DNA of 64,000 nucleotides, from positions 2,589,539 through 2,653,538 of the forward strand of contig VZDJ01000216.1 in NCBI GenBank assembly GCA_008694505.1, in the 5' to 3' direction. The stretch's first letter is position 1. Each line of letters starts with the position of its first letter. The notes under the pieces are model-generated. The model did not search any database. It was not told the DNA's origin and was given only the letters and a program-made list of their open reading frames with translations. Origin of the DNA: Cyanoderma ruficeps (Eukaryota; Chordata; Aves; Passeriformes; Timaliidae). Below, one piece after another: positions 23,528 to 64,000 of this stretch. A program made the translations under genes and the position numbers.

Positions 23528-42162
<18,635 letters not shown>

Positions 42163-44101: not shown

Positions 44102-45822
44102 ATGCTGCCAAGTGCTGGTGTCTATTACTTCCCATGGGAGATCAACAGCTCGGTCCCTGAGGGGAAGACACTGAGGACATTTGGCAGGTGAGAAGGATAC
44201 TCTGCTCTCCTCGCAGGCCAGGGCTTTCCTTTACTGGCTGAGCAGCCCCTTTGGTCTGTAATTGGATTTCTGCACAGCTGAGCTTCCCAAATTGATCATT
44301 CCCAGGTTATGCTGCTATGACCTGGCCCGATCTGAAGCCATTCTCACCATGCAGCACAACTCGGCTCAGTACCAAGTCTGTGTTGACACCAAGTTTGTGG
44401 AGCCATTCCAAGCCCAAGAGGGATCTTTCTACCTAGTCCTGGGAGAGGCTGAACACAGGGAAGGTAAATGTTCTGGGAACTGGTGCCCTTTGCTGCTCTT
44501 CATGGTACGTCAGCTCTTTTGGGGTTCCCTGAGTCACTGAGGGCAGCCTGGGCCAAGGCTCCTCTTGTGCACCTCCTCTGGTCACACGAGTGTGTTATTC
44601 AACATAGGAGCAGCCTGTCTGTCCCTGCTGACCATGAGAAAATTTTCACCATTATCTTGGTGAAAATCTGGTCCTCTGGCACAGATTTTTTTTTAGAAAC
44701 AGGAAGCATTTCAGCAGCATTTCTGGGCTTGTGAAACCAGTGCTAAAAAGCCTTCTGGCATCACTGCCAGCCACCACACCAGCTGTCTTCACCCCAAACG
44801 TGACAGATTGCAGCAGTACCTCATTGCAAGTGGCTGGGTTGGTCTTTGCCGTCTTTGAAAGGCTCTAATTATTATACCAGCCCTCAGACATGTGAGGAAT
44901 GCAGGCAGGCTCTGTCATGCAGGGCACCCTGTTGTCCTTTCCTGGGGTGCCCTATGTTCCACTTGGTTGGTGCTTTGCTGGGGAGTTGATCTGAGCTGGG
45001 CCATGTGATGGTGAAAGAAATTTTTTGTTCTCTTGGCCTCACCTGATAAAAAGCATTCACATTCATGCCACAGGAGTCCTCAGTGGCACATGGAAAGCCA
45101 CACTTCACGTAGCCTCTATAAAGTGACCTGCTAAGGCACTGCTGCAAAATTCCTTTAGAAAATGGTTAATTTGGTCATCCCAGCCTAGGAGGGAGTTGCA
45201 GGGGTGGAAGGGGAGCAGACTGAGATGGTGGCTGTGTCACCAAGGTTTGGCCCCTTTTGTGCAGCTCCACGTTGCCACTTGAATGCCACCAATGAACTGT
45301 TGGTTGTAGCCAGCCTCTTTTAAGCCCTCATGTCTGCACAGGGGCATTTAGAAATGAGCTCAGACCCATCACTGCTGCTTTTCAGACAGGGAAAACCAAA
45401 GTGCATCCAGCCACAAAGTAGGCAGATGCTGTATGGCAGGCACTGGCACCGTTCCCCAGTGCAAGGGGAGTGCAGTGTCAGTCACCAGCATTTTGCAGCC
45501 ATCAGGCAGAGGGAATGTACGTCACTAAATTAAGCTGCTCCTGCTGCTCACATCAGTGGCAGCATGCAGCCAGTCTGGTCTCCTGAAGTTCTCAGGCTAT
45601 GGTTATTTACCCAGCTTGAGTCATATGTTGCCTGAGGGAACTCTCTGTCTCCAAGCTGCTCTGTCTGTTTTCCTTTCTCCAGAAACTTCCAGTCCTGTGG
45701 TAAAAGCACGAATATTGACCTGCGTGGAAGGGATGAACGTGCCCCTGCTGGAACAAGCCATACAGGAGCAGAGGAAATACTTCAATGAGAGGCAGCAGCA
45801 GAAGGAAAACAGCATATCCTGA
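44102..45822 (+). CDS. TEN1: TEN1, CST telomere complex subunit (127 aa, 3 coding exons)
   Basis: Coding exons are 44102-44187, 44306-44463 and 45683-45822, summing to 384 nt. The first coding exon begins at acceptor 44085, so 17 nt of 5' UTR precede the ATG. The product is a small OB-fold protein. It opens with YYFPWEI and TLRTFGRL, and ends with a segment matching human TEN1, VKARILTCVEGMNVPLLEQA. TEN1 binds STN1, and with CTC1 forms the CST complex, which binds telomeric single-stranded DNA and recruits DNA polymerase alpha for C-strand fill-in. Human TEN1 is 123 residues. CDK3 follows about 2 kb downstream on the same strand, and a TEN1-CDK3 readthrough transcript is known in human. Confidence 0.93.
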
Positions 45823-45880: not shown

Positions 45881-51926
<6,046 letters not shown>

Positions 51927-52511: not shown

Positions 52512-52695
52512 ACTTGCTGCATATGAGTGGAAACAGGGAGCAGCTAAACCACTGGCTTTCCATCATTGTTCCAGATATAATGCTGTTTCCTTTGCTTTAT
52601 TGTCTTGAAAATGTTTTTGCTGTTCAAATGTTTGGGGAATTGTCTCTGACCTTTGGTGTGATGTTGACATCTTAATTTCTTTTTCATCTGTATAA

Positions 52696-52701
52696 AATAA
52701 A
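52696..52701 (+). promoter_or_regulatory. CDK3 polyadenylation signal (AATAAA)
   Basis: AATAAA lies about 770 nt past the CDK3 stop. A TG/T-rich stretch follows, as expected of a downstream element. Confidence 0.75.
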
Positions 52702-53350
52702 TACTTGTCATTTGTTGAGAAACCTTGGTGTTCATTGTTTGGCAAAGCCCATCAGGCTGGTAAGGTAGGACAGCCTGGCTGGTCCTTTTTTCCACAGAGC
52801 CTTTCTCCCTTCCTCATCTCCTGCACTCTTTCTTTTATCCTTTCCAGCCCAAATCCTTGGCAGGTGTAGAGAGTTTTCAGTTTGCTGGCCTGTAAAATCA
52901 GCACTGGGATGCCTGTGATATAAAGCTCGTTTGCTGGAAGAGTAACTGACCGCTGGGGTTTCGAAGCAATCGGGGGTGTGAGCTATCGATTACTGATTTG
53001 TTTTCTGTGTGCGTGGCTGAAATTGCATTTTTGGACGCGAAGCGCCCTCTCGAGCCAGTGCTCCGATTCCCGGCGCGAGTGGGAGCGGGCGGGCAGGGGG
53101 AGCATCCTCAGTTGCAGCTCAGCCGTTCCCCCGCCGTCACCTTGGCTCAGAGAGGAGGAGGAGAAGAGAAGAAACCCAACAGACTCCCAGCACAGCAGCC
53201 CGGCCCGGCGGTTCTCGCCTGTTCCAGCACCAGCCTCCTGGGCAGCGTCACCCGCCCGCTGCAGCCCAGAGACAGCCGCGGGGACACCCCGCGCCCAGGC
53301 AATCATTGTATTCGCCTTCCAGCCGTTGTTATATACTTGTATTATTGAGT
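52702..53350 (+). promoter_or_regulatory. Leader of the ERV gag frame: TATA-like box and CpG-rich stretch, no 5' LTR
   Basis: No copy of the 361-bp LTR is found upstream of gag. Instead a TATAAAG lies at 52919-52925, about 430 bp before the gag ATG. The interval 53035-53300 is richer in CpG than its surroundings. I could not recognise a tRNA primer-binding site. It may be retroviral leader, host promoter, or a junction of both. Confidence 0.35.
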
Positions 53351-55165
53351 ATGGGAGCGGTCTGGTCTAAAACTAGAGTGGGAAATGATATCCCGAATTC
53401 TCCGTTGAAATGTATATTGAGCTACTGGGAAAAGATAGGGGGAGACTCGCTACTTAAATCCAGATTAATCCAATATTGTAACTACTGGTGGCCACTGTAT
53501 AAACTGGAAAATCAGGTGAAGTGGCTGGAGAACGGCACCTTAGATTTTCACAGCATGTTACAGCTGAGGCTGTTTTGTAGAAGAAAGGAGGATTGGAGTG
53601 AGATGCCTTATGCAGGCCTGTTCTTTACTTTAAGAGACCATCTGGAATTGCAAAGGGGGTGCCTACCCAGCCTGTCAAACCCTCTCATGTTAGCTTCTGG
53701 AAAGGAAGGGGAAAAGGATACGAGATTGAAGGGATGTTGTTGTTCTTGTAGTATTGGGCACCACTGTTTGACGTGCCACAGCCGATGGGAGGAGGATGAT
53801 GTAAAAATGATAGAAATGCCAGATGCAGGAGACAGGGGGATAGAGAATTGGGGTGTGCCTGATAAGGGGGAAGCACAAGGAGGGGATGNAGTCCAGGGGG
53901 AGGGGTCTGGGAAACACTGCTCCAACAAATGGCTCATGAAGGTGGTGATAGAATACTTCTGCAAATTCTATACTACAACCCAGGACAAAGATTTAATTTC
54001 CAGTCCAGTGGTGGGGAGAACCCAGGGTGAGCAGGAGGAGAGAAAGCAGGAGGTTGGTGAGCAGGAGGTGAGAAAGCAGGAAAGGGATAAGCAGGAGGCC
54101 ACAGCTCAGCTCTGGGCAGGGGTGGGATCTCACAGCCTGGTAGTGGGGAAGGCACCTTTCTCCCCTGTCGATCTTGAGGCATGGATGAGACTGGCAGGGC
54201 CCTACAGAGAAGATCCAGAGAGAGTATTTAGGGTATTTGAAACCATCCTCAAGACCCAGAACCCAGACTGGGGGGTTATAAAAGTTCTATTAGATACTCT
54301 ATTAGACTCCACAGAAAGAGGGATGGTACTCAGGACTGCTAGGAAAGAGGTGGACAGGATAGGCACAGCAGATATATTACCAGAAACTGTGGAAGAGCAT
54401 TTTTCCTCCCAGGACCCCCATTGGGACCCTAACACAAAGGAGGGGAGGGTTTTTCTGGTGCAATATCAACAGTGGATATTATTTGGCTTTAGACATGCAA
54501 TGCCAAAGGCAATCAGTTGGTCTAAACTTTATGAGGTGAAACAAGAACCGCATGAGACTCCAACTGCATTTGTGGAACACCTAAGGGCAACTGCCAGGAG
54601 ATACACTAATATTGATCCGGAAAAAACAGAGGAAGCTATACAGCTGGCTTCCATTTTCATAGGGAACTCAGCACCGGATATTAGAAAGAAGTTACAAAAA
54701 CTGGAGGGAGCAGAGTCTTGTGACCTAGGAGAACTTTTACAAGTGGCCTGGATAGCTTTAAATAATGGGGGAGAAGAGGAAGAAAACAAGATCCGGGAGA
54801 GAGAAAAGGAGAAGGAGCAGAAAGAAAAGAGATGGGAAATGAAATGGGAGGGGAGAGAAAAGAAGTGGGAAATGGAAAGGGAGGAGAGAGAAAGGAAACG
54901 AGAGGTGGAAAGAAAAAGATGCAGGGATGCAATGCTCAGTGCAGCCCTGCAGAGAGCGCTATTTAACCGCAGGACGGAGCGGGGCTCGGCCCGCGGGGCG
55001 TTGCAGCCGAATCAGTGCGGGTTTTGTCGGGGACTTGGGCACCGGGAGAGGGAATGCCCCAAGAACCTGAAAGCGCCCATGGTAACCGAGCTAACCCTCC
55101 ATCAGGGAGGAAAAACCCCAGCTAAACCCCTGGTTACAGCAGACCTGGGGGAAAGAGAAAAATGA
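53351..55165 (+). CDS. gag: Endogenous retroviral gag, gammaretrovirus-like, intact 604-codon frame
   Basis: The frame runs uninterrupted from ATG 53351 to TGA 55163-55165, with one unresolved base at 53889. Residue 2 is glycine, as in myristoylated Gag. Residues 1 to about 115 are matrix-like and Trp-rich. An unusual Cys/His cluster sits at 129-143. About 226-250 is a short Glu/Lys/Gln repeat. The capsid-like region runs from about 268 (PFSPVDLEAW) to about 475. A strongly charged helix covers about 477-530, as in gammaretroviral capsid C termini. A single CCHC zinc knuckle (CX2CX4HX4C) lies at about 556-569. Pol remnants follow in the same frame after the stop, the arrangement expected of readthrough retroviruses, but here the stop is TGA. 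No PPxY or PTAP late motif was noticed. It could be a co-opted host gene or a chance survivor. Confidence 0.85.
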   Translation: MGAVWSKTRVGNDIPNSPLKCILSYWEKIGGDSLLKSRLIQYCNYWWPLYKLENQVKWLENGTLDFHSMLQLRLFCRRKEDWSEMPYAGLFFTLRDHLELQRGCLPSLSNPLMLASGKEGEKDTRLKGCCCSCSIGHHCLTCHSRWEEDDVKMIEMPDAGDRGIENWGVPDKGEAQGGDXVQGEGSGKHCSNKWLMKVVIEYFCKFYTTTQDKDLISSPVVGRTQGEQEERKQEVGEQEVRKQERDKQEATAQLWAGVGSHSLVVGKAPFSPVDLEAWMRLAGPYREDPERVFRVFETILKTQNPDWGVIKVLLDTLLDSTERGMVLRTARKEVDRIGTADILPETVEEHFSSQDPHWDPNTKEGRVFLVQYQQWILFGFRHAMPKAISWSKLYEVKQEPHETPTAFVEHLRATARRYTNIDPEKTEEAIQLASIFIGNSAPDIRKKLQKLEGAESCDLGELLQVAWIALNNGGEEEENKIREREKEKEQKEKRWEMKWEGREKKWEMEREERERKREVERKRCRDAMLSAALQRALFNRRTERGSARGALQPNQCGFCRGLGHRERECPKNLKAPMVTELTLHQGGKTPAKPLVTADLGEREK

Positions 55166-56520
55166 CTTTTAATAGACACTAGGGCTACTTATTAGGTATT
55201 AGATACAAATCATGGAAAATTAAAACAAGAAACTGTACGTGTTGTTAGTGCGACAGGAAAAGAGGAAAAAAAAAACATTCTTTAACCCCATTAACTTTAA
55301 ATTCGGCAAATGGTGGACATCACACCAATTTTTATATATGCCTGAATGTCCAGATCCTCTGTTAGGAAGAGAACTGCTACGTAAATTGGAGGCATGGATT
55401 TTGTTTAAAGATGGAGAAATGCAATTATTGGTATCTGAGACTGAAGCCATTGAGGCAAGAACTTTTATGTTGCAGGGAACACTGGAACCAGACATTTCTG
55501 GAGGAATAGCAGAAACAACAGAGAATGCAGTAAAAACACCCTTGATTTGGACCAGTGGAACTCCAGGCCATTCCAAATAAGCTCGGCCTGTAAGCGTTAC
55601 CCTAAAACCTGGATCAAAACCAGTAAAGCAGAAACAATATCCTTTAAAATTAGTAGCTAGGAGGGGAAGTGAGAGCCTAACTGAAAATTTCATGAAATTA
55701 GGATTATTGATAGACTGTAAATCAGAACACTCCCATTTTGCCAGTTTAAAAGCCTGGGATGAATAAGTACAGGTTGGTACAGGACCTATGAGCAATGAAT
55801 CAAATATTTCAGGATATCCACCCTGTTGTAGCCAATCCCTTTACCCCGTTAAATCTCTTACAGAATATCACCAATGGTTTGCAGTGATAGGTTTGAAGGG
55901 TGCCTTCTTTTGCATACCTCTTGATAATCAAAGCCAGGGCATTTTTGCCTTTGAATGGGAAAATCCTCAGACTGGCAGGAAGACTCAGCTTACCTGGACT
56001 GTGTTACTAGAAGAATTTTAAAATAGTCCAATGATTTTTGGGAACCAACTGGCAAAAGAATTAGAGACCTGGAAAAAGGAGTACTCTGAAGGGTTGGTTC
56101 TGCAGCATGTTGGCAAAATGTGTCAGGAAGCTTTTTAAAATGGCCACAGGTGCTACCACCAGGCTTGCTATGAGTTAGAGTACAGCCCCAAACTAACCTG
56201 AAGGTGGGCCTATATGAATTGAGGTTTGGGAGATCATATTCTGCTGCAACTTTCCCTGGATCTGAGGAGCAAATTGGAAATCAGGAAATAGAACAATATT
56301 TAATTTTATTAGGGAAACCCTTGAATGAACAAAAAAAATGGTTTATCATTCTCTCAGAACCTCTTACCCTAGACACCCCAGTTCACTCATTTCAGCCTGG
56401 GGATCACATACACGTACAGATCTAGAAACCTGAGCCACTTCAGGAGCAGTGGAAAGGATCTTATCTGGTTCTGGTGACTACAAAGACCAGCTTTGAAAGT
56501 GAAAGGAATTAACTCCTGGG
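55166..56520 (+). pseudogene. Decayed pol remnant (protease, part of RT, end of integrase)
   Basis: Directly after the gag stop, in frame, lies the protease active-site region. It reads LLIDTR where active enzymes have DTG, and a stop codon follows four codons later. Near 55320-55390 the protease C-terminal CPDPLLGRELLRKL is visible. Reverse transcriptase blocks appear at about 55620-56080 (AFFCIPLDNQSQGIFAFEWE, TGRKTQLTWTV) in shifting frames. The catalytic YxDD region, RNase H and most of integrase are missing. At about 56190-56500 an integrase C-terminal segment (HSFQPGDHIHVQI) remains. Several stops and frameshifts make this non-functional. Confidence 0.8.
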
Positions 56521-57249
56521 TACATTGCTCCTGAATTCAGAGGTCTCCCAACCAAGAGTGGACAGTGGAAAACACTGGACCCTTGCAGCTGAAAATGTTG
56601 AAGACATCTGCAAAACCATCAGCGAAATGTATAGACTAATATTTATGGGAATTATTTTATCTTTAGGTGGAGGTGTTGAAGAAAATTTAATATTGACTTG
56701 AATCCAAGGGTTTGGTGAGATGCACAATCTGTCCAGCATTACAGCCTGCTTCCCTATCCTCAATTCAGCAGGGGAACCTATTCCTGGATAATTGTCCCTA
56801 TAAATCTGTGAATGGTGACTCAATGTGATAATCTGACATGACAAAACAGAATGGCCTTAGATCTATTGCTGGCCAAATAACAAGGAGGTTGTGGATATTT
56901 AAAATTGGATAGAAAATGTTGTTGTCTACACGTCCCAAATGTAACAGAAGTTCTCCAAAGACCACAAAATGTGGCCAGTTGCTGAGGATAGCAATGCTAT
57001 CCTGAAACTAATTGGTTCAGTAAAATTCTTTAAGGAATAGTGTGATGGTCCCTAAAAGGAAGGCTGGCTGGAATACTGGAAACTATTGTAACTGTCATTG
57101 TAGTTGTAATGATTATCAGCATTGCTATTGGTTGTGTTCACAAAATGATCAGTCATAATCTTGCTGGAATATAGGTGGCTATAGATAGAAATTGAGTTGG
57201 AACTTATCGGATGGCTTTAAGGAATTTGAGACGTTTCAAAGGAGGGAAT
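56521..57249 (+). pseudogene. Decayed env remnant and polypurine tract
   Basis: Only the C-terminal part of a gamma-type env is visible. A cysteine-rich stretch near 56890-56940 sits where the CX6CC motif of the transmembrane subunit would be. A hydrophobic segment at about 57080-57145 fits a membrane anchor. Stops occur throughout. A purine-rich tract at 57238-57249 (AAAGGAGGGAAT) directly precedes the LTR, as a polypurine tract should. Confidence 0.65.
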
Positions 57250-57610
57250 TGATACCAAAAGGGTTAATGCAATTTCTGCTGTGTCTTTGTACTTTTAGCA
57301 AAAAGAAATGGGGCATGCAGGAGCTGCTTTCTTGGCAAGGACCTACTGAATTCCTAAAACATCTGGCTTAGGAATGCAGCTACAGCCAAAACAAGGCTAT
57401 AAAAATCCCTGAGCCTGGGAGCAGGGGGAGGGTTTTATGGTAATGGGCACTGATAATATGCATGGAGTGACTGTATGTAAGCAATGCACTTGTAGAGAAT
57501 TTTGTGCACAGTAGGTGGAGCTTATCCTGTAATAAATGATGCCTCTTCTTAACACTACATTGATGTTAAGGAGTTTTATTTTACTCGGGTTTTGGTGAAT
57601 TTCAGTGACA
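57250..57610 (+). mobile_element. 3' LTR of the gag-carrying provirus
   Basis: The LTR begins TGATACC after the polypurine tract and ends GTGACA, 361 bp in all. It has a TATAAAA at 57398-57404 and an AATAAA at 57531-57536, in U3 and R order. The solo LTR in ACOX1 intron 9 confirms the boundaries. GGACG follows it, and the same five bases occur at 53033-53037 upstream of gag, which may be coincidence. The AATAAA is the first plus-strand polyadenylation signal after gag. Confidence 0.85.
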
Positions 57611-59869
57611 GGACGAGGGGCCGATGGTTCTGCAGCCCGGTGATGTATCACTGTGGGGTTGTTTTCTATTAGAAGTTGCCACACGCTATTTCAGAGTTAT
57701 GTTCTACTTATTTAAATACTCAAAAGACAGATCTCATTTATGGAAGCCAAACTTCCTCACTCCTGTTTTTCATACAAGTGCACACATGTGCTCTCCTAGT
57801 AACTGCAATCCCAAAAAAAACAATTTCAGCACAACCTGACAGCTGTGCTTCTGCATCTCATGGCCTCTGGGTGGTGACAACCAGCTTGGAGGCACATATT
57901 TGTGGATGAATCCATGGAGACATGGATGAATTCTGCTGTGGGAATCATTTCCCTGCCTTTGCATACATGTTGTAAAGTCAATGCTCTGCTGTTTGCTCTA
58001 TGCAAACAATGCTCACGTTGTACCAGACAAACTGTTTGCAGAACAGTTTCCTTTTTGTTTTGTTTATAAAAGATCTGCAGTAAAAAATAAATACCAAGGA
58101 TATTCATCCAGTCCAGAAACATAAATAAAACACTAGAGCAAACCTAGCCCAAAAATTGAAGCAACTGACTTAACTTTAAACATTTCTTACCAACTCCACT
58201 GCCAGCAAAGGGAACAAACAGCAGCTGTGTTGAAATAACTGCTCTGGGGAAGCCACAGTGCAGCACCATCACTCTGTGCCTGGGAAGGGAGGAAAAGTCC
58301 TACCTGGCTCCTTCTGAGCAGCTCACAACCCTGCCAGGCAGCAAGGCTTTGGGGAAAGCCCCGTGGCTGAGTGGTGCTTCCCAGGGGCACATCAGGATAG
58401 ACATGAGCTACTTTCTGCAGATAAGGGGCACTTGGTAGCAAACAAAAGGATTTTTAGTGGGTGTTTTTCAGACTAGTCTAAGCTGCTCTGCCACCTAATC
58501 ATCCCTTAACAACTTCCCCCAACCCCAGCTAAATCCCTCCCACCACACGGTTTTGTCCAAAATTATTAACTACCTGCCTAATTACCAGAACTCCAAGTCT
58601 CATGGTTGCAGAGCACTCCCCCAAACCATTAATCACCCCACAGGGCAGAGTGAGGAAGGCTGGCAGCAAACTCACCTGCTGGGCTGAGCTGAGCTGCAGG
58701 AAAGGCAACAGCTCCATTGCTGATGGATGCTCCAGCGTTCAGCCAGCCCAGGGGAGCAAAGCCAGGGCACAGTGAGGCTGCTCCCAGCAGCTTTGAGGAG
58801 GTTTCCTGGGAACAGCACTGCTCCTGGGTTGTGCTGTGATAGGATCCTCACCTGGCTGTGCTTCTTTGCTTCAAGGGCTGGTGGGCAGATTCTCTCCTGG
58901 CCCGTGACAGTGCAGCTCCAGGGCCTTGCTGCTGGCCCAGACCAAAGGAAACAGGCTGGGAGTGGATGCTCCAGGCTGTGTGCTATGGTTTTCCCTACTG
59001 TGAGGCAACAAATTGCCCAGCATTGATCATGGCAGCTGAGATGGCCACCAACAGCAGTGATAGGCCTGACAATAACCAGAGACCCTGCAGAGCCTGGGAC
59101 AGAGCCTGGGCAGATCTCAGACTGGAAACTTGCTGTTACAGATTACTAATGCTGGGCACCACCTACAGCAGGAAGGTAATGGGAGCTGAGTGTGCTGAGC
59201 CTGCCAGAGTGGGAACAGTTTCCTTCTGGAACCCAGACTTCAAATTCCAGCTGGGTTATATGGAAATAGAGGCTATGCTGCTGGTCTGGTGGGTGAAGGA
59301 GGGGGAGAAAGCCTCTACTCTCATGGATTCTTTTGGGTGTGTTTGAGTTCCTGAATAGCATCAGCTGAAAAAGCCCTTGGGAGAGGGGAAGGAGCAGTTG
59401 ATATGAATAGAAAGTAATTTTCTCATCTCATAAACCCAGGGGATGCTCCACAATAGGAAGAACATTTGAGATATGAGAATTGCTTGTTTCAGGAAGGACT
59501 GAGTAGTGGAAGTTACAGAGGAGTAACTTCCTTTTAGTTCACCTGAAGAAATAGCAAGTGCAGATTTTCAAGTACTGCTGGGTGGGACTGTAACCCTTTG
59601 GTGTTCAGGTCCCTCTTTTAGAAGTGCCCAAATGACCAGGAAGCAAAGTCCCATTGGTTTTCAGTTTTAAAGACAAATATAACAAAATTTTTAAAAATAT
59701 AGAACAGAAGGACACTTTAGGGGGTTCAGTGCTGGGAGATCAGGGAGAGCAAGAGTCTGCAAAACCTGTGTGGATTGGGCTGCAGGGCATGGGATTGCAT
59801 GAGGGAGAAGTAACTGCCTTCAGCCACAGCCTGCAGAGACAACACAGCCACAGACACTCACTTGCTATG
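57611..59869. other. ERV-EVPL intergenic gap
   Basis: No gene, RNA or recognised repeat is seen. A plus-strand AATAAA lies near 58085. The open frame at 58858-59346 on the plus strand (162 codons) has no recognisable family or splice context. Confidence 0.4.
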
Positions 59870-60215: not shown

Positions 60216-63200
60216 TCAATGCCTGAATCGCGAGAGCCTGGGGGAGCGGCTCGCCTGGTGGTACCGCTGATACCCCTCCGACGCGGCCGGGAGCAGCAGG
60301 AGGTGGCTCAGAGGATCCTTCTGGCAGAGGGCCATGGCCTCCTTGTAATTCATCTTCTCTTTAGTGACAGGGTCAACGAGATCTTTTTCATAGTTGGACT
60401 CATCCTGGAGCCTATTGGCCAAGTTGCTTGTTATCATCCCTGTCTGGACAGCTTCCAGCACAGGGATGCGACCGGTTTTCTTGGGATCGATGAGCCCTCC
60501 AGTTAGATGCTGGACTTGCAGGTAGGGGAAAGCACTGTCCTTGGTCATCCAACCCTTCTGAACTGCTTCCCCCACAGACAGCCTTCGCTTGGTCACTGGG
60601 TCCTCAATGCCTGTGAAAGCCTTCTGGGCATTGAGCAGTCTCTGCATGTAGGTCCTGTCAATCAGCCCCCTCTCGATCGCCTTATGCACCGAGAACCGGT
60701 CTCTGGAAATGAGGTCTATGATGCCCCCCGTGGCAGCCTGGGCCTCCAGGAGCTTCTGACCTGTCATGGGATCGAGCAGCTTCTTTGCAACGGCAGTTTT
60801 GATGTTGTACTTGGTGTTGGTGGTGGTGTCATACACCCCGGCGATGGGGGATGTGTCATCACATATGCCCTTCTGTGAGGCTGGGGGGAAGAAGGTTTGG
60901 GTTTGGTGGGTGGTGGGTGATGTGAGTGGGGATTTGGAGATGATGGAGCCAATTGAGAGGGACGAGGGAGGCTTGGTTTCCCCGGCCACCAGCAAGGCAA
61001 ATTCAGAGATGGGAATCTTGCCATCCCGGTACAGCTGGTACTCCTCCTTTGTGATCCTCCTCAGCCTTAGTGCATCATCGATGGAATACTGCTTCCCACT
61101 TTTCTTGTCAAGGAGAAGTGAGATCTCCCCATTTGGGCCCAGGGTGGTGATTTCTTCCCAGTCACACTCCAGCTCTTGCAGCTGGATGTACTGGCCTCTG
61201 TCTATGATCCCTCGCTTATAGGCCTCGTAGGGGGACATGTCCTTCCCTGTGTCAGGGTCCAAAATAGAGATCTTGGTGGAGAGGTTCGTCTCTCTCATCT
61301 GGGTCTCATGATTGATTTCTTCACGGTTGACCTTTGACTGGAGATCCCGAATGAACCTCTCCTTGTTGTAGATCTGGTCCTTCTCCCTAAGGATTTCTGC
61401 CTCCAGCAGGGAAACCTCATGTTCCAGCTGCTTCTTCTTCTGCCTGTCATTCTCAGTCCTCTGGCTGAGCAGTTTGGATTCCTCCCGAAGGAAGAGAACT
61501 TTCTGCTGCTTTTGCCTCTCCAGCTCCCGCAGTTCACTCTCCAAGTTGGCTCTCTCCTGGATGGCCACATTCCTGGCTTTCTGCAGCTCCGTCTCTTCAC
61601 GAGCCCATGTCCTCTTCATGCCTTCAGCCCTCTCGATCCTCTCCCGGAGCCGCCGTACCTCTTCTTCTGCCTTTTGCTTGGCTCCCCTCTCCCTGCTCAG
61701 CAGCTCCCAGATGCGTGCACGTTCACTCTCCAGTGCTCTGTCCTTTTCCACTCGAATCACCTCCTTGTAGATGGTCTTTTCCTGGGATTTAGTTTTCTGC
61801 AGGACATCGACTTGCACCTGCAGGTTCTTGCATTCTCTCTGCAAGCTCAGCACCTCCATCTTCTCCCGGTCCAGCTCCAAGCGCAGGCTGCTGGCAGACT
61901 GTTCCAGGACTGGATCCTTCTCCAGCTTGACCACTTCTTCCATAATGATTTTTTCTTGTACTGGAGCTGGGCTCTCCTCCAACTCCTTTATTCTCAGTGT
62001 AATTTGTCTCATCTCCTTCTCCAGTGCAAGCCTCTTGCTTCGATCCTCCTGAAAGTTGAGCAACTTCTCTTGCTCTTCCACCAGCACACGAACCTGCTGC
62101 ACCTCACGTTCCAGGCGACGCCTGTTGCTCACCTCCTCATCCAGACTGCGCCTCAGCCTGCTGTGCTCATCTCGGAGCTTTGGATCCTTTTGGGTCACTA
62201 TCACCTCTTGAACAACCACCTTCTCCTCTGGCTTCCGCCTCTCCAGTAGCATGTATTTATTCTGCAGGTCATAGATGGCATCCTCTGCAGCTCTCCTCTT
62301 CTGGGACATGTTACGCACCTCCTGACGCAGGCGATCGGCTTCTTTTTCCAAGAGTGGATCGTTCTCGTATCGGATGACTTCCTTGTTGACCAGCTTGGTT
62401 TCCACCTTGGATCTCTCCCTCCTCCATTCATCCCTTTCCCCCTGAAGCCTAATGAGCTGCTCCTGGGTCCTGCCATTGGTGTTCACAAGTTCATTGAGCT
62501 GCTCTTTCAGCCTGTCAATTTCCCTGAGAATTTCTGGACTCTTCTCATGTTTCACCACCTCCTCTATGACCTCTTTAAACTCCACCTCTGGTTTTTGTGA
62601 CCTGAGGACTTTGAGCTCTGCTAAGGCCTCTTCCACTTCACTGTCAATCTTTGTCCTTTTCAGAGTGACTTCCTGCAGCTCCCTTTTGAGCTGTGCAATC
62701 TGCCGCTCTGTTTCAGGGTCCACCATGAAGATCTCATTGACCCTTTCTTTCACCTCTATCCTGGGCTTTTGCTTCTCTGCAATACTGTATTGGCTCTGCA
62801 GCTCTCCCAGCTCACCTGTCAGCATCAAGTTTTTGCTCCTCTCTTCTTCGATCAGAGTTTTAAGCTTGGAAGTCTCTTTCAGTAACTCTGGGTCCTGCTC
62901 TACCTGTTTCACCTCCTTAACAATAATTTTGGGTTCTGCTGTTTCAATCAATCTTTCCACCTCTTCAATCTTGTTCTTCACTTTCACTATTGCTTCTTCT
63001 GCAGACTTTCTTTTGAAGGATTCCTCATCGATTTGTAACTGCAGGGTCCTAACAGACTTCAGCATTTCTGGGTTTTTCTCCAGTTTGATGAGCTCCTTCA
63101 CCACCACCTTCTCTCGGATGTTGGGCTGCTTTCGCTCCAGCATGTGCAGCTCCCTCTTACGCTGCTCAAGCTCAGAAGAGGCAGCCAAGCTTTCCTCCTG

Positions 63201-63665
63201 GAGACGCCTGATCTTCTGACGAAGACTGGCTGCTTGGCCATCCAGGCTTGGATCTTTCTCAATTTTTGTGATCTCTTTGGTGAGGAGCTGAGCAGGAGCG
63301 ACCTTCTTCTCACTCTCCATCTGGGCAAGCTTACGGCTCATCACATCAATGTCTTCTTGCAGGCTCTGCCTCTTTTTGCCTTCCTCTTCAATCTGCTGTA
63401 CCATCCTAGACAGGTTGCTCTCCACCTGTGGGTCTCTGTAGTATTCAATCACCTCTTTTTCTTCCACTCTTTCAATGGGCTTCTGAGTTTTCAACATCAG
63501 CAGTTTGTTTCTGTGTTCCTCCAGGTCCTCTTCAATCCTGGCCACTTTCCTCCTTTCCTCCTCCAGCTGCAATTTCAACCCCTGAGAGTCCCTGCTTGTT
63601 GTGGCTTTGTTTTCAGCTTTCTGGGTTTGCTCACGTACAGCTTCAATGTCCTCATGCACTTCCTT
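60216..63665 (-). CDS. EVPL: EVPL, envoplakin, last coding exon (C-terminal 1149 residues; 5' part outside the window)
   Basis: One 3450-nt exon runs from acceptor CTTGCAG (exon base 63665, phase 0) to the stop at 60216-60218. The upstream exons lie beyond the window. Residues 1 to about 790 of the exon form the coiled-coil rod, with a repeating EV(I/V)xxEKDP-like motif. About 795-880 holds a plakin-type linker (SILDPDTGKDMSPYEAYKRG). About 943-1110 holds the C-terminal plakin repeat modules, with DPVTKRRLSVGEAVQKG-like units. A basic Arg/Ser-rich tail ends SRFRH. In epithelia envoplakin pairs with periplakin, joins desmosomes to keratin filaments and is cross-linked into the cornified envelope. 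EVPL ends convergently with CDK3, as in human. The giant last exon is typical of plakins. Confidence 0.94.
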   Translation of the reverse strand, partial: KEVHEDIEAVREQTQKAENKATTSRDSQGLKLQLEEERRKVARIEEDLEEHRNKLLMLKTQKPIERVEEKEVIEYYRDPQVESNLSRMVQQIEEEGKKRQSLQEDIDVMSRKLAQMESEKKVAPAQLLTKEITKIEKDPSLDGQAASLRQKIRRLQEESLAASSELEQRKRELHMLERKQPNIREKVVVKELIKLEKNPEMLKSVRTLQLQIDEESFKRKSAEEAIVKVKNKIEEVERLIETAEPKIIVKEVKQVEQDPELLKETSKLKTLIEEERSKNLMLTGELGELQSQYSIAEKQKPRIEVKERVNEIFMVDPETERQIAQLKRELQEVTLKRTKIDSEVEEALAELKVLRSQKPEVEFKEVIEEVVKHEKSPEILREIDRLKEQLNELVNTNGRTQEQLIRLQGERDEWRRERSKVETKLVNKEVIRYENDPLLEKEADRLRQEVRNMSQKRRAAEDAIYDLQNKYMLLERRKPEEKVVVQEVIVTQKDPKLRDEHSRLRRSLDEEVSNRRRLEREVQQVRVLVEEQEKLLNFQEDRSKRLALEKEMRQITLRIKELEESPAPVQEKIIMEEVVKLEKDPVLEQSASSLRLELDREKMEVLSLQRECKNLQVQVDVLQKTKSQEKTIYKEVIRVEKDRALESERARIWELLSRERGAKQKAEEEVRRLRERIERAEGMKRTWAREETELQKARNVAIQERANLESELRELERQKQQKVLFLREESKLLSQRTENDRQKKKQLEHEVSLLEAEILREKDQIYNKERFIRDLQSKVNREEINHETQMRETNLSTKISILDPDTGKDMSPYEAYKRGIIDRGQYIQLQELECDWEEITTLGPNGEISLLLDKKSGKQYSIDDALRLRRITKEEYQLYRDGKIPISEFALLVAGETKPPSSLSIGSIISKSPLTSPTTHQTQTFFPPASQKGICDDTSPIAGVYDTTTNTKYNIKTAVAKKLLDPMTGQKLLEAQAATGGIIDLISRDRFSVHKAIERGLIDRTYMQRLLNAQKAFTGIEDPVTKRRLSVGEAVQKGWMTKDSAFPYLQVQHLTGGLIDPKKTGRIPVLEAVQTGMITSNLANRLQDESNYEKDLVDPVTKEKMNYKEAMALCQKDPLSHLLLLPAASEGYQRYHQASRSPRLSRFRH

Positions 63666-64000
63666 CTGCAAGGGAAAAAAAAAATCACTCTTTTAAGGTG
63701 ACTCAGAGGTCTCTTAAGTGACATGGCATGGTGGGAGACAAAATTGGCACAGAATCCTCAGGCAGTCTTCAAATAAGGCTGTTTGTAAATGGAAAGTGAG
63801 CACACAATCCCATCATCTCAAGCAACTGACTTGGTGGGTCTTCCCCTTGAGATGGAGGTGCTGCAGCAGCCCAAAAATGTGCTTTGTGCTGCCTTTTGTA
63901 TCTGCAGCCAAGGGAGAGCATCACAGCCAGTCCCCAGTTTAGTCTCTTGTGCTTCCTGAACCCACTAAAAGTCACCTGCTCCTGACACCTTTCCTACAGG
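63666..64000 (-). other. EVPL intron upstream of the last exon
   Basis: A polypyrimidine tract and CAG acceptor directly precede the exon on the minus strand. No further exon is recognised before the window edge. Confidence 0.6.

Follow-up and report, generated by a model that had tools for sequence, protein, structure and literature searches.

The most familiar examples of co-opted gag genes come from mammals. Mouse Fv1, a host gene of this kind in which the capsid has been kept, derives from a class III (ERV-L-like) Gag, and the ancestor of Arc and of the RTL genes was a Metaviridae gag. The Gag of murine leukemia virus (MLV) carries a PPxY late domain, and in sheep the defective Gag of the betaretrovirus enJSRV joins and blocks related particles. 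Arc, PEG10 and the RTL genes are likewise host genes for a Gag of the assembling type (PMC11011659). The window considered here, viz. the entire stretch of 64,000 nucleotides of Cyanoderma ruficeps DNA that was analysed, contains a gag gene for which the original prediction proposed a comparable origin, as a candidate co-opted gene within an otherwise wrecked provirus. This reading is supported by the presence of orthologs in other oscine birds, by synteny of the locus, by conservation of the capsid and by the decay of pol, and based on these sequence comparisons it is highly probable that gag has been co-opted as a host gene. Among the papers listed in searches of the open-licence part of PMC, none dealt with a songbird gag locus between CDK3 and EVPL, although a wide catalogue of vertebrate co-options may already include it.

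The provirus is of the class-I (gammaretrovirus-like) type and it is situated, in this oscine bird, between the genes CDK3 and EVPL. The CDK3 exons (47843..51869, + strand) were located by tblastn with the CDK3 parts of protein models from Zosterops and Lonchura, showing 84-100% identity exon by exon, and ahead of them lies a TEN1-like exon (44304-44462), named from the precomputed Pfam assignment PF15490 of the Zosterops model (P0008); we take PF15490 to be TEN1, and the human gene order is likewise assumed. On the other side, the large terminal exon of EVPL (60216..63671, - strand) shows 97% identity to oscine envoplakins. The gag gene (53351..55165, + strand) consists of 604 codons followed by TGA, with one ambiguous base (N) at 53889, and its frame was confirmed to be free of stops and frameshifts. 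It is followed by a protease-reverse transcriptase remnant (55166..56113, +), where tblastn revealed 5 stops and 3 frame changes and where the protease motif reads DTRA as against DTGA in a relative from the same genome (L003), by an integrase C-terminal remnant (56345..56491, +; tblastn with P0042, E=2.7e-12; 1 stop) and by a piece of what is presumably env TM, so labelled from a motif and its position (56830..56979, +; tblastn, 76% identity over 50 residues; 2 stops), which is also present in the Corvus moneduloides model P0190. A purine-rich tract stands just ahead of the 3' LTR (57250..57612, +), for which there are 29 other matches in the bird's own genome, several of them covering query positions 50-413. 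With 6 stops and 3 frame changes in the pol remnant of the window and none in gag, and with the damaged env piece, the earlier claim that the other genes are broken is borne out. If pol and gag had decayed equally, a count of 5 stops plus 3 frame changes over 365 codons of pol, versus 0 in 604 gag codons, would have P = 4e-4 (P 0.008 for stops alone), and the better count of 6 stops would lower both P values. A second (5') LTR was sought by local alignment and the score was at chance level, in agreement with the earlier statement that none is visible. At 26861-27230 (- strand) the window contains a further member of this LTR family, with 71% identity (C140:2616399-2616768 in the genome).

Immediately upstream of gag there is a CpG island (52900..53500), which constitutes a candidate promoter together with the gag 5' leader. 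Over 52900-53349, it has a CpG observed/expected ratio of 0.80, a GC content of 0.60 and 32 CpGs, and its edge is abrupt, with 0 CpG in the 100-base windows over 52600-52899. Four stretches sampled from the element have ratios of 0.13-0.34, although single 100-base windows within gag reach 0.68, and the island is one of 8 island-like stretches listed for the 64 kb of the window, among which two overlap. A pattern scan placed a candidate TATA box, TATAAA, at 52919..52924 (+), with another TATAAA at 52691. The leader of 426 nt that follows the box (52925..53350, +) contains no ATG as against 4.4-5.1 expected (P0 = 0.0045, mononucleotide shuffles), the ATG of gag has A at -3 and G at +4, and a candidate poly-A signal, AATAAA, lies within the 3' LTR (57531..57536, +). 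Taken together, the TATA box, the ATG-free CpG-island leader and the LTR poly-A signal form a plausible transcription unit. CpGs that have been kept suggest a promoter that is unmethylated in the germ line.

The predicted product retains the successive parts of a retroviral Gag. Its N-terminus, beginning MGAVWSK (53351..53680, +), is termed MA-like based on its position and its relatives; it was described from the alignment and the private-change count, and Pfam gave no match to an MA domain in the window Gag. All 9 ortholog models with a complete N-terminus begin with MG and have Cys5; in the window MG is kept and position 5 is Trp. There follow a linker containing a tandem repeat with a 15/30-nt unit (54030..54098, +), the length of which varies strongly among species and is greatest in Serinus, and a capsid (residues 267-466; 54149..54748, +) that is the slowest-evolving section of Gag, that Pfam detects as a retroviral p30 capsid (Gag_p30 type) and for which the closest solved structure is the capsid of MLV. 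Residues 474-545 (54770..54985, +) are predicted to form a single long charged helix. A CCHC zinc knuckle, CGFCRGLGHREREC (residues 556-569; 55016..55057, +), was recognised from its pattern and from the ortholog alignment; it is the single C-x2-C-x4-H-x4-C match in the window NC, and Pfam zf-CCHC gave no match to the window Gag at E 1. The corresponding sequence is CAYCR(G/A)LGHWKREC in all 10 other orthologs that cover it. Structure prediction for the full protein with 12 alignment rows gave a pLDDT of 42.8, and for the capsid-NC part with 45 rows a pLDDT of 84.6, with an MLV-like capsid and the long charged helix after it. None of the late-domain motifs PPxY, P[ST]AP and YPxnL is found in the 13 ortholog models (some partial), and of the 21 further related Gags that were listed, 16 also lack a late-domain motif. 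PPxY itself is absent from the window, the 13 ortholog models and the 21 other related Gags, and due to its absence throughout the group it cannot separate members within it. A product formed in the absence of a protease would presumably stay immature.

A protein search with the window Gag gave 62 matches, of which 13 form one oscine group (viz. Cyanistes, Ficedula, Geospiza, Zonotrichia, Junco, Zosterops, Serinus, Malurus, Taeniopygia, Lonchura and three more). Twelve of these 13 proteins show 71-87% identity and every match outside the group is at or below 56%; the 54% listed for Lonchura stems from a model that consists in part of CDK3, and in the capsid part it differs from the window at 7 of 85 residues. 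When only the capsid was taken as the query, in a second search aimed at short or broken models, 28 matches were obtained, including two crows at 86% (P0183) and 76% (P0190); the others were Gags with 49-70% identity across the part that matched. By these protein searches, Gag orthologs are present in 12 named oscine species, ranging from fairywren and crow to finches, including zebra finch, which is kept as a laboratory animal and the model of which is partial. An oscine Gag piece of Lamprotornis superbus (P0186), with 59% identity to the capsid, is intermediate between these orthologs and the remaining Gags; it may be either an eroded ortholog or a further copy from this family. No Gag from a named suboscine or from Acanthisitta was found in either protein search, although EVPL of these birds is present in that database, and the missing matches are weak evidence of absence. 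Scans of viral and genome contigs for DNA of orthologs gave no relative.

The locus itself was seen for Zosterops, Lonchura and crow, and the remaining named species are represented by protein only. The models Zosterops P0008 and Lonchura P0021 consist of CDK3 exons followed by gag, both halves being collinear with the window; such fused public models may reflect either annotation error or read-through transcripts. In crow, gag (P0183) and EVPL (P0072) are each on a contig of 3,412,780 bases, and the crow model P0190 also reads a leader like that at 53008-53271 (E=3.4e-7) in addition to the env TM piece, due to which it very probably represents the same insertion. Synteny is thus supported for these three birds, and the interval, which the original prediction proposed to examine in other birds, is not empty. 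The expectation that gag should be unbroken in relatives holds in part: in 7 of the 13 orthologs the span from MA to NC is complete (the other 6 models being partial), but the crow models may be broken. In a gag tree, for which Malurus was fixed as the outgroup by the analyst, known relatives grouped together (Zonotrichia with Junco, support 100, and these with Geospiza, 93; Ficedula with P0003, 100; Taeniopygia with Lonchura, 64), although four inner nodes had supports of only 27-43. In the EVPL tree, the window bird falls among the oscines, where it adjoins blue tit in the sample with a modest support of 69, and Malurus falls outside crows and Passerides with a support of 83.

A published timescale places the split between oscines and suboscines at 47.3 Ma and the crown of Corvides at 25.7 Ma (PMC11111414). 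Since Malurus lies outside crows and Passerides in the EVPL tree, on this timescale gag should be older than 25.7 My, and with a rate of 2.0e-9 per site per year given for zebra finch (PMC12047795), this minimum corresponds to a neutral distance from Malurus to the other birds of no less than 0.10 substitutions per site. Neutral evolution was simulated on 200 window codons, taking the minimum time and ignoring indels and CpG effects, and at d=0.10 it changed 18.7% of capsid amino acids (2.5% quantile 14.0%). The observed differences from Malurus in 182 capsid residues are 12, 13, 13, 13, 16, 16, 17, 18, 20, 22 (the window), 23 and 27, i.e. 7-15%, with 6/67 for the partial Lonchura model. Of these 12 near-complete comparisons, which are non-independent as all share the Malurus branch, 11 are under the neutral lower bound, and Ficedula (27/182, 14.8%) is within the range that neutrality allows at the minimum age. 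The remnant of env TM, with only 50 residues, is too short to serve as a yardstick: between window and crow, 13 of 101 capsid residues differ as against 12 of 50 in this dead piece (p=0.10), and p ranges from 0.007 to 0.18 by species. At the amino-acid level, the comparisons with Malurus would be in accordance with purifying selection on gag, as would the rates of its parts: the tree length for the same 10 sequences is 0.40 substitutions per site in the capsid and 0.77 in the MA-like part, and the linker has a rate of 1.67 (10 rows, from a partly different set). This pattern bears on the suggestion that it is the CpG island or the RNA, as a regulatory element of CDK3 or EVPL, which is under selection, with gag as a passenger. 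The adjacency of the island to CDK3 and the fused CDK3-gag models agree with this suggestion, but a passenger frame would not hold its capsid residues against rates of change that are two- to fourfold higher in the MA-like part and the linker, and a purely regulatory role is thus very improbable.

Another reading that must be considered is that this is an ordinary old provirus in which gag is open by chance, and that it is visible elsewhere only since open copies get annotated. Databases list what annotators found open, so that broken orthologs are under-counted and the protein sample is biased, and relatives with open gag frames do exist in the bird's own genome (e.g. L002-L006). However, several families share the same neighbouring gene, the gag tree unites known relatives and the capsid falls under the neutral expectation in nearly all comparisons with Malurus. 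The number of stops expected under neutral decay, a check that the original prediction had proposed, points in the same direction: at d=0.05 a neutral gag would acquire 3.8 stops on average, with P(no stop)=0.017 per lineage, and none is present in this gag beside a heavily broken pol. Additionally, L003-L006 look young and are near-equal in score, but the window gag has no close copy among the best candidates. Based on these considerations, persistence by chance is distinctly improbable, and co-option of gag remains the preferred interpretation. The absence of close copies is based on a search of the own genome with gag that gave at least 90 matches and in which 73 of 2113 candidates were scored, due to which the match counts are lower bounds. 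The window copy aside, the best identity among these best 73 of 2113 candidates is 60%, over a fragment of 122 residues, and most are at 27-51%. For LTR matches of more than 200 bases the identity is 67-76%, and values of up to 93% occur only in short matches of about 40-130 bases; a re-alignment of LTRs with loose gap costs displaced the ends and was left out of dating. The reservation in the original prediction that gag might be open because the element is young is thus answered: near-identical copies were not found either for gag (among the best candidates scored) or for the long LTR matches, a recent insertion is ruled out on these grounds, and the element, as judged from its sequence, is old. 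Separately, the four Gag copies L003-L006, of nearly equal score, lie in frames that are open over 885-1812 codons and appear to be young relatives. Another open Gag, 495 codons in length (L002:1471-2955; C478:7211656) and 53% identical to an annotated penguin Gag (P0013), is followed by an RT-like piece and possibly marks another old avian gag locus.

The window copy also differs from its orthologs in ways that could indicate relaxation. At 304 sites that are invariant in the others it has 25 private changes (Malurus 28/236; the rest 1-18), including C5W, G341D, P352S and W565R, with a mean BLOSUM of -0.28, and both Cys5 and the conserved Trp of the knuckle are lost. It runs 18 residues beyond the HQE/HHE end that is seen in 7 of the 10 orthologs covering the C-terminus. 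A linker insertion of ~27 residues (53880-53990), with the N at its start, is seen only in this bird among the aligned orthologs. On the branch of the window lineage, the knuckle has a length of 0.22 versus 0.07 for the capsid, which suggests relaxed or altered constraint in this bird. In the crows, the Corvus moneduloides model P0190 has no MA-like part and passes from the capsid directly into the dead piece of env, and it has 1 private change in 64 otherwise invariant capsid sites as compared to 6 in 94 for P0183 of C. brachyrhynchos; gag may have been lost in these birds. It is possible, though doubtful, that gag was co-opted in early songbirds and is now being lost in some lineages (crows, and perhaps the window bird, whose copy would be recently relaxed and still open), as the private changes, the knuckle branch and the crow models would indicate. 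However, the frame of the window copy is open over its full length and its CpG island is retained. Further, the EVPL branch of the window (0.019, versus 0.008-0.014 in three other Passerides) is the longest among the sampled oscines, due to which part of the excess of changes reflects a fast lineage, and as close sisters in the set lower private-change counts, the excess is also partly a sampling effect.

In the explanation that we favour, viz. that of a co-opted, interfering Gag, a class-I retrovirus would have entered the CDK3-EVPL interval in an early ancestor of the songbirds, and the host would have retained gag as a gene while pol and env decayed. The TATA box and the CpG-island leader would drive gag, with translation from the first ATG, and the transcript could end at the AATAAA in the old 3' LTR. 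The product would be an unprocessed, protease-free Gag, in which Gly2 would direct it to membranes, the capsid and the long charged helix would mediate assembly and the CCHC knuckle would bind RNA. Such a Gag most likely would poison related retroviruses, whether infecting or endogenous, by joining or binding their lattices. Transcription, protein, assembly and antiviral action are all proposed here from the features of the locus; interference appears the simplest role for such a protein in a bird whose own genome holds many related retroviruses. For a restriction factor engaged in an arms race, a slow capsid would not be expected. If co-option is granted, the antiviral mechanism has about an even chance of being correct, and we regard the statement as a whole, combining co-option, own transcription and an interfering antiviral Gag, as equally likely to be right or wrong. 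Alternatively, the co-opted Gag could form a capsid that carries RNA or other cargo in the manner of Arc and PEG10, with no antiviral role. The occurrence together of the Gly2 N-terminus, capsid and CCHC knuckle in 7 of 13 orthologs (the others being partial models), and the slow evolution of the capsid, as a structural role would predict, are in accordance with such a carrier, but all 13 ortholog models lack a late-domain motif (as do most of the other related Gags) and the knuckle's conserved Trp is gone in the window copy. A cargo carrier is therefore considered rather unlikely, and an interfering Gag would be the likelier of the two.

If these interpretations are correct, then a whole Gag (MA-like part, capsid and NC) has been maintained through much of the songbird radiation, with possible losses in some branches, and it would represent the birds' own case of gag co-option; the locus is noteworthy in that gag spans the songbirds and carries its own promoter-like island, and it would allow one to ask whether host Gags serve antiviral interference or capsid-based transport. 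More tentatively, a Gag gene specific to songbirds and dating from near the base of the oscines, with its own CpG-island promoter and with independent losses, might either form membrane-associated, RNA-binding capsids, as a bird counterpart of Arc and PEG10 of gammaretroviral origin, or be a capsid-based antiviral factor common to songbirds. OVEX1 of chicken is also an avian endogenous retrovirus, the title of its description referring to sex-specific expression in gonads and the paper mentioning gag, passerine, orthologous and purifying selection (PMC2717909). The mode proposed here is the same as that of the sheep enJSRV Gag, but the window Gag is a songbird class-I protein and in its case interference is only proposed. 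It differs from the MLV Gag in lacking PPxY, in the broken state of its protease and RT and in its linker, which is a tandem repeat of variable length. In contrast to Arc and the RTL proteins, it is a retroviral Gag_p30 protein whose closest matches are retroviral p30 capsids rather than products of Metaviridae descent. As compared to Fv1, it is a class I Gag with an MLV-like capsid, it is found in songbirds, and it has kept its MA-like and NC parts.
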